A stretch of 64,000 bases of DNA from positions 1 to 64,000 of the forward strand of contig JAPPBX010000069.1 in assembly GCA_026702755.1 (NCBI GenBank), read 5' to 3'. Positions within the stretch are counted from its first letter, which is position 1, and each line of letters begins with the position of its first letter. This stretch comes from Candidatus Poribacteria bacterium (GTDB lineage: Bacteria; Poribacteria; WGA-4E; WGA-3G). The translations under genes were made by a program, and so were the position numbers. This document shows, one piece after another, positions 7,448-49,906 of this stretch. The notes under the pieces are model-generated. The model had not been told where the DNA came from, did not search any database, and saw only the letters and a list, made by a program, of their open reading frames with translations.

Positions 7448-8275
7448 ATGCAATATGCCGGTATGAAAGCTCCTACATGGCAGCTAACACTCATTGTTAT
7501 ACTGACGCTGTGTGCCAGCATCGGTTATGCAGATATTCTATTTCAGGATGACTTTGAGAGGAAAAACGCACGTCTTCGGCGAGTCATTGATGAAAGCAAA
7601 TGGATGGTCATACCGAGTTGGGAACTCAGTGACAACGAGGATAACCACGAGGTTTTAGGCAGAAAGGTACTTGATATCTGGGGGCATGGTGCTGGATTAA
7701 GTGTCGCTGAGTTTCCAGAAGAATTTGATTTCTACGCCGATTTCAAGACGATGGAAGGAACTGTTTCCGGGAGTGTAGCACGTTTTGTCTTTCACGCACA
7801 AGAAGGCGAATTGAACCCAATCCGCCTTATTCAGGCAAACGGCATTTATAACTATTACTCGGCATCAATCGCGACGGAAGGTGCCAAATATTCACCCCAA
7901 CATATCCGTTGGGGGCGCCATTTCGCGCGTGAAAGAGTTTGGCGAGTTTGGAATGTTCCATTTGCAGACAAACAGAATCGGAAACGAGACGTTTGGTACC
8001 GAGTGAAGTTCGAGGTCCGGGCGAATCATCAATTTCATGCATACTTAGGTGAAGTCGGCGCGGCCCCTAATGAACTCATTTTCGTGGGGACATGGACCGA
8101 TCATCAAAAGCAGTTCGCGCGCGGAAAGATCGGCTTCTCAATGGGAGGGAATATTAGATGGGGCTGGGGCGAACGCGCCCAATTTGATAATATACTGGTG
8201 ACAACACCGGGATTTCTCTCTGTTGCCCCGAAAGGGAAATTACCTCTAACATGGGGTGAACTAAAGCAGGAATGA
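7448..8275 (+). CDS. Exported concanavalin/glucanase-fold protein with TWG tail
   Basis: 275 residues with a signal peptide (hydrophobic TLIVILTLCASIGYA, mature start near DILFQDDFER). The body has the DDFE...W opening and long beta-strand pattern of concanavalin-like lectin/glucanase (DUF1080-like) domains, with FDNILVTTPG near the end as in that fold. No catalytic residues can be assigned, so it may be a sugar-binding protein. The C-terminus VAPKGKLPLTWGELK belongs to the same tail family as the proteins at 6659 and 20874. A second, out-of-frame copy of the tail coding sequence follows its stop (8277-8315). The ATG at 7448 has only a weak purine-rich leader; an ATG at 7463 is an alternative start. 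Confidence 0.7.
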   Translation: MQYAGMKAPTWQLTLIVILTLCASIGYADILFQDDFERKNARLRRVIDESKWMVIPSWELSDNEDNHEVLGRKVLDIWGHGAGLSVAEFPEEFDFYADFKTMEGTVSGSVARFVFHAQEGELNPIRLIQANGIYNYYSASIATEGAKYSPQHIRWGRHFARERVWRVWNVPFADKQNRKRDVWYRVKFEVRANHQFHAYLGEVGAAPNELIFVGTWTDHQKQFARGKIGFSMGGNIRWGWGERAQFDNILVTTPGFLSVAPKGKLPLTWGELKQE

Positions 8276-8276
8276 T

Positions 8277-8315
8277 AAACTCGCCGTAACGTGGGGAGAC
8301 CTCAAAATACAATGA
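8277..8315 (+). pseudogene. Orphan copy of a TWG-tail coding segment
   Basis: Read from 8277, the DNA encodes K-L-A-V-T-W-G-D-L-K-I-Q and a TGA stop. It sits two bases after the stop of the preceding gene in a different frame. Codon for codon it parallels that gene's true end (K-L-P-L-T-W-G-E-L-K-Q-E, TGA), with the shared residues mostly encoded by different synonymous codons. It looks like the 3' end of a diverged relative left by duplication or recombination. Its TGA overlaps the ATG of the next gene. Confidence 0.55.
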
Positions 8316-9319
8316 ACTCTCAAAAACCATTGACAATTGGCATCATCGGTTCTGGCAATATGGGCAGACATCATCTCAGAGTGATAACCGAGTACGGCGC
8401 GAGCGTCGTTGCCGTCCATGACGTGCAATCTGAGGCAGCACGCGAACTCGCAACGCATGCGGATGGAGCACTTGCCACTACTGATTTAGATGCTTTTTTC
8501 GATGTAGATATGGACGGGGTAGTTATCACAACACCACCGCCTGTCCGCCTTGTACCTATCCAGATGGCATGCGATCGTGGCATATCTGTGATGGTCGAGA
8601 AACCTCCTGCCCTAAATATGGTTGAAGGTAGAAAATGCCTTGCATCTATTGAGAAAGCAGGCATCATCGCTGCTGTGGGATTTCAACTCCGTTATCATCC
8701 GCTCTATGAACAGTTGAAGGCGTTAATCGCTTCGGAGACGGTGCATCTCGTCCGAACGGTCTGCACCGTCAATTATTACCTCAGTTTCAGGATGTCGCCA
8801 TGGTTCCTGCAGTATGAGATAAGCGGTGGTCCCTTGCCGGAACAAGCGGTGCATGTCTTGGATTGTGCTCGGTTTGTCATCGGGAATCCGAAACCGGTGC
8901 AGGCACATGCCTTAGCGATTAAAAATATGGCACTGGAACGGACCGAATTCGATGCTGAAAATGCCATCCAAATGACCTATCAACTGGATAACGGGGTTTT
9001 CGGAACACACATGAATCACTGTGGGACCGAAAATTTTAGTTTTGAAGTTGAAGTCGTCGGACCACATTTGCGACTACACGCAAACATGACAGAAAATGTC
9101 ATTCGTGGATACCTTAACGGCGAAACTATCAATGAACCGGCAGTCTCCGAAAACAGTTTAGGTTTAGACAAAACCGGGGCATGGCTGCGCGCCATTGAAA
9201 CAGGCGATAGGACACTCATCCGCTCACCTTTTGCTGATGGCGTACAGACGCTTGCCTTAATTGATGCCGCGGTCCAGAGCCGCGACACCGGTAGATTTAT
9301 CCAAGTGAAGGACCTGTAA
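8312..9319 (+). CDS. Gfo/Idh/MocA-family oxidoreductase
   Basis: 335 residues. The N-terminal Rossmann fold begins with GIIGSGNMGRHH for NAD(P) binding, and the conserved catalytic-site element V-EKP (MVEKPPALN) follows near residue 100. The C-terminal half has the open beta-sheet with YHPLYEQL and the GG-x-LPEQAVHVLD motif carrying the usual substrate-site histidine. Family members oxidise or reduce hydroxyls of sugars, inositols and related compounds; this substrate is unknown. I chose the ATG at 8312, giving the canonical start MNSQKPLTIGIIG, rather than the upstream codon at 8291 that lies within the orphan tail copy. It lies among exported carbohydrate-related genes, which fits sugar metabolism. 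Confidence 0.88.
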   Translation: MNSQKPLTIGIIGSGNMGRHHLRVITEYGASVVAVHDVQSEAARELATHADGALATTDLDAFFDVDMDGVVITTPPPVRLVPIQMACDRGISVMVEKPPALNMVEGRKCLASIEKAGIIAAVGFQLRYHPLYEQLKALIASETVHLVRTVCTVNYYLSFRMSPWFLQYEISGGPLPEQAVHVLDCARFVIGNPKPVQAHALAIKNMALERTEFDAENAIQMTYQLDNGVFGTHMNHCGTENFSFEVEVVGPHLRLHANMTENVIRGYLNGETINEPAVSENSLGLDKTGAWLRAIETGDRTLIRSPFADGVQTLALIDAAVQSRDTGRFIQVKDL

Positions 9320-43954: not shown

Positions 43955-44046
43955 CTGAGATCCTCCTAACCAATCTTTCCTTGCATATTATAAGAGAAGG
44001 TGTTAAAATTGCAATCAACTTCTGAATATGCAAAGAGGAAATAAAT

Positions 44047-44075
44047 TTGATTTTTTCTCGAAGATATAGTATAAT
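44047..44075 (+). promoter_or_regulatory. Strong promoter for structured RNA
   Basis: TTGATT (44047-44052), a 17-base spacer and a consensus TATAAT (44070-44075). No coding gene follows directly; the predicted transcript would start near 44082 and run through the first structured repeat into the terminator ending at 44401. Confidence 0.65.
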
Positions 44076-44229
44076 CCTTAAAACTTACACATGACAGGCG
44101 ATAAATTGCCTCACTACAAACATAGGTCTCTTGTAAATACAAACATTTCTCCAAAGCATAGCAATTTGTAGTAGTGCAATTCGTTATGAATTGGGTAAGT
44201 CCTGAAGGAATCACGATCTAAAGCGATCA

Positions 44230-44361
44230 TCTGATTCAGATTTTGGTGGAGTAGGTCATTGATCTTTAGAGAGTGCCGACTCTATTCACCAGAGGATTAC
44301 CGAGTCCTCAAACAATGAGGGATGCGTTGATAACGCTTTGAGAGTACCGACTCTACCTCCA
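44230..44361 (+). repeat. Structured RNA repeat, copy 1
   Basis: 132 bases, nearly identical to 44476-44604. Helices: AGAGT-GCCG-ACTCT (44270-44283), GAGGA-TTACCGAG-TCCTC (44292-44309), GCGTT-GAT-AACGC (44324-44336) and AGAGT-ACCG-ACTCT (44341-44354). The 5' strand TGGTGGA (44244-44250) can pair with TTCACCA (44285-44291), and its overlapping part TGGAG (44247-44251) can pair instead with CTCCA (44357-44361). Three loops contain CCGA or CCG. Confidence 0.8.
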
Positions 44362-44371
44362 AAAAGACGAT

Positions 44372-44401
44372 TAAGAGGGGGCAACAATTATCCCCCTCTT
44401 A
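44372..44401 (+). terminator. Terminator-like hairpin between RNA repeats
   Basis: Perfect 10-bp stem TAAGAGGGGG / CCCCCTCTTA with a 10-base loop, followed by TATCTTATATT. It would end the transcript carrying repeat copy 1. Confidence 0.65.
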
Positions 44402-44475
44402 TATCTTATATTCCGCACGTGTTTTGACACATTTCAGAAATCAACATTACTGCGTATAGGTTATATTTTTTTGAA

Positions 44476-44604
44476 TCTGATTCAGATTTTGGTGGAGTAG
44501 GTCATTGATCTTTAGAGAGTGCCGACTCTATTCACCAGAGGATTACCGAGTCCTCAAACAATGAGGGGCATTTATAATGCCTTGAGAGTCCGACTCTACC
44601 TCCA
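44476..44604 (+). repeat. Structured RNA repeat, copy 2, leader of DUF3800 gene
   Basis: 129 bases matching copy 1. The third hairpin differs in sequence but keeps its stem: GGCATT-TAT-AATGCC (44567-44581) against GCGTT-GAT-AACGC in copy 1. It ends 14 bases before the ATG of the DUF3800 gene. A TTGACA at 44424-44429 may be its -35 element, but no good -10 follows. Confidence 0.8.
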
Positions 44605-44618
44605 CTTCACATAAAAAA

Positions 44619-45488
44619 ATGCAAACATGGTGTATCTATATAGATGAATCAGGAGTCAACGAAGATAACCCCGAATTCATTTATGCCGCTATTTGTGTTC
44701 CTTTTAATATCCAACAGGAATTCTTAAAGTCCTACTCCAAAATTGTCAATTCTTTGGTACCTATTTCCGGCAGCGAGATAAAATATAGCCCCCTTCTTAA
44801 TGATTTCGATAGAAATTATCAAGAAAAAAGTGGCGAGATATGCCAGTCACTATTGGCGCGCTTTTTTAATATAGAAGGTGCCCAGATTATTCGGATAAAA
44901 GCGATAAGAAAACAGATGCGACTTGAAGGTGGTGACCTCCGTGCAGCTCTCTTTAAAAAAGCACTTGAGCTCAGCAAGCAGTCTTTACCACCTGATCACC
45001 AAGCAATGATTTTGCACGACGAATTAGACAACCGAAATCTACAGCGCGCACTGTTAGATACGTTTAATAACTTCAATAAAGACTTGCCTAAAGGTCTAAA
45101 CTTTCAAAACTGTGTCTTTGTCCATTCTAATGAAAATCCGTTCATACAGTTTGCTGATTTCGTTGCTTCCATCTGCTACAGATATTATTACTTTCAGAAA
45201 ACAGAATATAAGGATAAACAGTATTGTAAATCATTAGTAAATTCGCTATTTAACGCAATAGATGAACGCTCACCCCCTATTGTTGAACTCTCTGAACATA
45301 AGGTTGTTGAAGGCAACCCGAGAAGAGAGCACGCGTTACAACTCGCTTCAGAACACGGTATTGATATTACTACTGCTTACAATATAGTAGATAAGCGGAT
45401 TACGCTTGTTGAAGTGTTGCGGCGAAAACAAGCTCAAACTTCCGCAGCTCATAAACGAAACGAAGATAAGCGCGAAATCCCCTCCTAA
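44619..45488 (+). CDS. DUF3800 protein
   Basis: 289 residues. The start WCIYIDESGVNEDNPEFIYAAICV and the late PFIQFADFVASICYRYY are the two hallmark blocks of DUF3800 (YxDESG and the Q-x-A-D region), with MILHDELDNR between them; the acidic residues suggest an RNase H-like nuclease fold, as proposed for the family. Members occur often in defence islands. There is no evident ribosome binding site in the 14 bases between RNA repeat copy 2 and the ATG, so translation may depend on that structure. Hydantoinase B follows two bases after its stop. The C-terminal 60 residues (from ALQLASEHGIDITTAYN) look like an added helical domain. Confidence 0.85.
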   Translation: MQTWCIYIDESGVNEDNPEFIYAAICVPFNIQQEFLKSYSKIVNSLVPISGSEIKYSPLLNDFDRNYQEKSGEICQSLLARFFNIEGAQIIRIKAIRKQMRLEGGDLRAALFKKALELSKQSLPPDHQAMILHDELDNRNLQRALLDTFNNFNKDLPKGLNFQNCVFVHSNENPFIQFADFVASICYRYYYFQKTEYKDKQYCKSLVNSLFNAIDERSPPIVELSEHKVVEGNPRREHALQLASEHGIDITTAYNIVDKRITLVEVLRRKQAQTSAAHKRNEDKREIPS

Positions 45489-45490
45489 CC

Positions 45491-49485: not shown

Positions 49486-49551
49486 ACTTGAGCCTATCTC
49501 ATATCTTACGTTACCGGTATAAGCTGCAATCGCTTGGGGTCAAACAAAAAA

Positions 49552-49906
49552 CTTGAGTTGAGAATAAGCCGGATTCTGTATGTGATGATCATTCATCTGG
49601 GATGGATGTTACCATCCACCTCAAGCGGTTACCTGGGGACAAGACGGGCAATCTTTACGCGTCCCCCATTTACCTTGCTCCAGATGGGGTTTACCAAGCT
49701 CCATAAGTCACCTTACGGACTGGTGCGCTTTTACCGCACCGTTTCACCTGTACAACACCCTCGGGTATTGTAGTCTACTTTCTGTTGCACTTTCCATAGC
49801 GTCACCGCTCCTGGGGGTTACCCAGCATCCTGCCCTGCGGAGTCCGGACTTTCCTCATCCCGATCATAAAATTATGTTCGAGACGCGACCATCTACTCAA
49901 CTCAAG
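49552..49906 (-). ncRNA. rnpB: RNase P RNA (class A)
   Basis: Catalytic RNA of RNase P, which trims tRNA 5' leaders. On the minus strand the core GAGGAAAGTCCGGACTCC is followed by CAGGATGCTGGGTAACCCC, and the 3' part has ACAGAATCCGGCTTATTC, the universal conserved segments. The ends pair: CTTGAGTTGAG at 49896-49906 with CTCAACTCAAG at 49552-49562 (minus-strand sense), forming helix P1. The length of about 355 nt is typical. Confidence 0.95.

Follow-up and report, generated by a model that had tools for sequence, protein, structure and literature searches.

A mobile cassette in which two copies of an RNA element precede a DUF3800 gene occupies positions 44030 to 45490 (plus strand) of a 64,000-nucleotide stretch of Candidatus Poribacteria DNA, referred to here as the window. 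The cassette is found at two or more genomic sites, is patchily distributed, and is absent from close relatives of the genomes that contain it; the Poribacteria carrying it are sponge-dwelling. Its parts are arranged in the order promoter, copy 1, GC-rich hairpin, copy 2, and DUF3800 gene, and sequence comparisons indicate that the element is conserved, very probably folds as a structured RNA, and goes together with this DUF3800 subfamily. Proteins of the DUF3800 family are associated with some CRISPR loci and with structured RNAs that lack an explanation, and a module with both a stand-alone and a leader copy of its RNA offers a clean case for separating antitoxin, regulator, and cofactor roles, the RNA being the more constrained partner of the pair.

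A duplicated RNA element and its linked gene

The two copies are 95% identical over approximately 130 nt (44230-44361 and 44476-44604) and no other repeats of this class are present in the window, in agreement with an original prediction, made from this DNA, of a two-copy element of about 130 bases. The core of the element spans ~119 nt. Copy 1 (44243-44361, plus strand; covariance model score 150 bits) is predicted to form a stand-alone transcript and is 97.5% identical to its counterpart in another genus. Copy 2 (44489-44604, plus strand; 137 bits) is 93-99% identical to copy 2 of three other genomes and ends 14 nt upstream of the DUF3800 ATG, within what is predicted to be the mRNA leader of that gene. 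No further copies were found in the 5.8-Mb genome, and a genome-wide dispersed repeat was thus rejected.

The promoter anticipated ahead of copy 1 is a sigma-70-type sequence, TTGATT-17-TATAAT (44047-44075, plus strand), scoring 10/12 in a consensus scan. The original prediction missed a second structured domain and hairpin (44083-44237), conserved in four to five genomes. The 5' domain of the copy-1 transcript (44083-44200, plus strand) is predicted to form a long nested hairpin, CUUACRUA...UGCGUAAG, and immediately upstream of copy 1 is a further hairpin, GAAUCA...UGAUUC (44208-44237, plus strand), whose stem is kept across five genomes, with a C-G to A-U change in G057 and otherwise one mismatch and one gap. 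Over both structures, 93% of cells in the five-genome alignment are paired, compared with 29-41% for slid structures. Folding z-scores of the 5' domain are -3.0, -2.75, and -1.5 in three genomes, and the two-sided changes at three pairs of the alignment are, with five sequences, not significant against column shuffles. The domain is missing in G048 and G049, where the promoter (TTGACT-16-TACAAT) adjoins the element and the predicted transcription start falls at the element's first bases. Two other candidates were rejected in this region: a small ORF within the 5' domain, which is lost in G057, and the leader sequence ATCTAAAGCGA as a general promoter motif, close matches to which are confined to the unit and its remnants.

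The GC-rich hairpin between the copies (AAGAGGGGG/CCCCCTCTT; 44372-44401, plus strand) has a perfect 9-bp stem, and all six two-copy loci keep the stem, with energies of -14 to -21 kcal/mol. Because its U-tract (AUAUCUUAUAUU) is poor, we describe it as probably a weak terminator, leaky at best. The terminator proposed for copy 1 thus stands as a perfect and conserved hairpin, with the reservation that its U-tract is poor and that a terminator scan did not list it.

An alignment of 14 copies supports the four hairpins originally counted in the element, although the 5' strand GGUGGAGUAG has alternative partners; its options are the 3' end CUACCUCCAC, favored in 11 of the 14 sequences, and the internal CUAUUCACC, giving two competing folds. 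Hairpins 1, 2, and 4 have an ACCG-like loop in common; the stems of hairpins 1 and 4 are invariant, and hairpin 2 varies in two sequences with its pairs always preserved. Hairpin 3, which had been put forward as an instance of covariation, does have different stem sequences (GCGTT/AACGC versus GCATT/AATGC), but only a single pair truly covaries (G-C to A-U, in five copies). The covariation claim is weak, since a single helix pair supports it among the 14 copies and a single event probably accounts for the change. Folded as single sequences, the copies do only modestly better than shuffles (z of -1.4 and -2.0).

We surveyed 85 genomes of the phylum by DNA search and with a covariance model for the element, and both approaches identified the same nine genomes. 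Those relatives belong to Candidatus Poribacteria, with OX638352.1 as the closest record that has a name. This DUF3800 subfamily is present in six of the 85 genomes, one of which (G070) has only a fragment, and in all five loci with a recognizable gene of the subfamily (G000, G081, G057, G034, and G048, the last with a broken gene) two same-strand copies lie directly upstream with the hairpin between them. The linkage of element to subfamily is strong, and the tie between RNA and DUF3800 that had been proposed is borne out among these relatives. In G049 the contig ends 13 nt past copy 2. DUF3800 genes of some subfamily occur in 35 genomes of the phylum, and the element was not seen at other subfamilies in the loci examined; 126-nt repeats adjoining a gene of another subfamily proved to be coding WD40 repeats and were rejected as copies of the element. 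We note that G014 (L105) has three ~117-nt tandem repeats upstream of another DUF3800 gene. Neither the element nor relatives of this DUF3800 subfamily were found in phages, plasmids, or viral contigs.

Comparison of G000 and G034, which belong to different genera, shows the RNA copies and the terminator hairpin to be the most conserved parts of the unit, with identities of 97.5% for copy 1, 97% for the hairpin, 93% for copy 2, and 71% for the 5' domain. The DUF3800 gene is 74-79% identical at the nucleotide level and its product 67% identical (dN 0.18, dS 0.51). The values for copy 1 and the protein indicate that the RNA is under stronger constraint than the protein, which, judged from its codons, is itself under purifying selection (dN/dS about 0.15-0.40).

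The DUF3800 protein (289 aa; 44619-45488, plus strand) is a putative RNase H-fold nuclease, and no Shine-Dalgarno sequence is seen before its ATG. It matches Pfam PF12686 (E 1.7e-12; 48.7 bits against a curated cut-off of 21) and no other Pfam family, including ToxN/AbiQ and Abi_2, and it has no NCBIfam match. In an alignment of 28 DUF3800 proteins, positions D9, E/D10, D134, and D180 are conserved and the acidic motifs YIDESG, D134, and AD180 are invariant or nearly so, a pattern that fits the residues typical of a metal-dependent nuclease. Taken with the published prediction of an RNase H fold for DUF3800, for which an association with noncoding RNAs was also noted (PMC10910872), these four acidic positions fit the nuclease-like label previously given to the protein. 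DUF3800 nucleases also accompany some V-A2 and VI-F CRISPR loci (PMC12669027). An AlphaFold model built from three sequences (pLDDT 44.5) was too poor for a fold search, and a search of solved structures with the protein gave no credible match. A C-terminal motif of ~35 aa, LASEHxIxxxTAYxIVDKxITLxxVLRxK, is present once in the window protein and three times in tandem in G034 (L024:2998-3996); it has no clear match to a known domain, a weak HTH hint aside.

Insertion sites and decay of the unit

In the window, the whole unit stands where a ~39-nt intergenic leader would otherwise separate a Gfo/Idh/MocA gene from a hydantoinase B gene. The site is empty in G068 and G079, whose flanks are 92-93% identical, and the 39-nt leader of these sites is common to other empty genomes. 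In G034 and G043, other sites are occupied by the unit or its RNA; in G034 the unit is situated between truncated and full copies of a ferredoxin-like gene (L036:5664-6098 and 7774-9078), which suggests a local duplication at insertion. We note that the gap between the Gfo/Idh/MocA and hydantoinase B genes (43955-45490 in the window; L130-L137) is an insertion hot spot with varying cargo, which elsewhere includes an ISP restriction enzyme, DprA, PIN+TPR, a ferritin-like gene, and a transposase-like gene. Further along the window is a class A RNase P RNA (49550-49904, minus strand; 305 bits).

The unit is often found in a state of decay. G063 and G043 have one hybrid copy of the element, with the left flank of copy 1 and the right flank of copy 2, and no DUF3800 gene; G046 has an internally deleted copy and no nuclease; and G048 has a broken nuclease gene with both RNAs intact. 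There are no cases of an intact nuclease without RNA, and G070 has a DUF3800 fragment without RNA. Decay is one-sided in this small number of cases, with the nuclease lost before the RNA. The copies also share private variants within genomes. Four genomes (G064, G065, G070, and G073) have lost all of the unit but its promoter and some of the leader, which now lie ahead of hydantoinase B, as if the leftover promoter (L060, L063, L064, L066) had been taken over by that gene.

What the RNA might do

The reading that we tentatively prefer, while giving it something short of an even chance, is that the unit is a mobile two-gene module of structured RNA and DUF3800 nuclease, working by analogy with AbiF/RCd22 or the type III toxin-antitoxin systems. 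One promoter would give rise to an RNA of ~320 nt, comprising the 5' domain, the hairpin, and copy 1, with transcription mostly stopping at the conserved hairpin; occasional read-through would yield a second RNA containing copy 2 and the DUF3800 gene, which would be poorly translated, having no ribosome-binding site. Copy 1 RNA, in excess, would bind DUF3800 through the element hairpins and hold the nuclease inactive, and copy 2 within the mRNA would bind newly made protein and damp its own expression. A drop in transcription, such as during phage attack, could then free the nuclease to cut RNA or DNA. Consistent with such restraint are the common layout of five loci, the greater conservation of RNA and hairpin, the one-sided decay, the promoter of G048 and G049 with its predicted transcription start right where the element begins, the missing ribosome-binding site, the acidic residues, the patchy multi-site presence in company with a hot spot holding an ISP restriction enzyme, DprA, and PIN+TPR, and the AbiF/RCd22 precedent. 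Against it count the single copy before the terminator, an element of ~119 rather than 34-50 nt, the weak U-tract, the few decay cases, the G070 fragment without RNA, and a protein that is neither ToxN/AbiQ nor Abi_2. A stronger form, that the unit represents a new class of RNA antitoxin in which a multi-hairpin RNA of ~119 nt, duplicated across a terminator, neutralizes an RNase H-fold DUF3800 toxin, is doubtful, though, if correct, it would also hint at what the catalogued DUF3800 RNA motifs do.

The position of copy 2, ending 14 nt before the ATG, would suit autoregulation without toxicity, in which DUF3800 would bind this copy in the leader of its own message and repress or process that message, with copy 1, a duplicate, tuning the response as a decoy or attenuator; the two alternative folds of the element could also act as a switch. 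The closing stem GUGGAG/CUCCAC is informative here, its 3' side being intact in all six copy 2s and degraded in copy 1s (CUCAA, CUCAG, CUCCAA, CUCCAG), and the weak HTH-like repeated motif at the DUF3800 C-terminus points the same way. We nonetheless regard autoregulation as a serious but rather doubtful candidate: the closing stem is disrupted by a base in each of the two G081 copies, and neither the promoter-to-terminator unit of copy 1, with its extra 5' domain, nor the survival of RNA after nuclease loss is explained. That the RNA outlives the nuclease in decaying units also speaks against an effector ribonucleoprotein, in which the RNase H-fold nuclease would need the element as a cofactor or scaffold to become armed, as in IscB with omega RNA, perhaps for defense. 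Such a role would accord with the predicted fold and noncoding RNA association of DUF3800 (PMC10910872), with its occurrence as an accessory protein in type V and VI CRISPR loci (PMC10910872, PMC12669027), and with an RNA that is more constrained than the protein and located upstream of the gene. It is unlikely, however, and an RNA-guided version is disfavored because there is no space for a guide: the predicted start in G048 and G049 coincides with the 5' end of the element, and the distance from its 3' end to the terminator hairpin is only ~10-20 nt.

A further reading, quite improbable, holds that the conservation of the element as DNA or RNA has nothing to do with what DUF3800 does, and that the gene travels along with, for example, a repeat or a recombination site. 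The one clearly covarying pair would be compatible with this, as would recombination between copies, seen in the G063 and G043 hybrids and the shared private variants, but solo copies are absent elsewhere in these genomes, decayed units excepted, variation falls in the loops and hairpin 3 with the stems preserved, and the unit has its own promoter and terminator and its complete linkage to DUF3800 at the five loci.

Comparison with known RNA-protein systems

Among defense systems, the PADLOC candidate PDC-M04A, itself a candidate only, resembles the unit through a weak profile match (E 7.5e-5) that covers the greater part of the DUF3800 protein. IscB has an RNase H-type nuclease domain and, encoded upstream of it, a structured omega RNA (HEARO, RF02033); unlike that system, the unit described here has no HNH domain, no evident guide segment, and no Rfam match, and we found no RuvC/HNH or TnpB protein and no HEARO or IS605-type RNA match that would place it with IscB/TnpB. 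The type III toxin-antitoxin systems (ToxIN, AbiQ, TenpIN, CptIN) similarly have a repeated RNA, a terminator, and then a probable nuclease gene, but their repeats are 34-50 nt rather than ~119 nt and all precede the terminator, whereas here one lies on either side of the hairpin. With no toxin of the ToxN/AbiQ/TenpN/CptN type and no array of 34-50 nt repeats, the unit does not belong to this family, and the earlier suggestion of a type III system survives as a candidate mechanism, by analogy.

In the AbiF/RCd22 system of Clostridioides difficile, the nearest model for how the unit may work, the order is promoter, noncoding RNA, terminator, and toxin gene; premature termination yields an abundant RNA that also binds and neutralizes the toxin, acting both in cis and in trans (PMC12373285). 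The unit shares the order of promoter, noncoding RNA, terminator, and protein gene and the presence of two related RNA motifs, the AbiF/RCd22 gene being expressed by read-through (PMC12373285). It differs in that the AbiF/RCd22 protein is Abi_2 and its motifs are 33-35 nt long, both before the terminator. Neither Abi_2 in Pfam nor the abiF RNA motif in Rfam is matched here.

Weinberg et al. reportedly described the DUF3800-I to -XI RNA motifs in 2017. DUF3800-linked RNAs in Rfam include DUF3800-I (RF02969), whose covariance model has 115 positions, and DUF3800-IX (RF02968; PMC11701678); we found no report of a function for such RNAs. No Rfam DUF3800 model matches the element at E <= 10 and nothing in Rfam 15 reaches a gathering score, weak matches to potC (E 0.026) and others being far under theirs and dismissed as chance. 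We therefore class the element as a new RNA family, judged against Rfam 15, within a kind that is already known; the original claim of a new RNA-protein system is too strong, as DUF3800-associated RNAs are already in Rfam (RF02968, RF02969; PMC11701678). Like the DUF3800-I to -XI motifs, it is a conserved structured RNA associated with DUF3800 genes, here upstream in 5/5 loci; it is in addition duplicated across a terminator hairpin and accompanied by an extra 5' structured domain, two features that we have not met in descriptions of those motifs.
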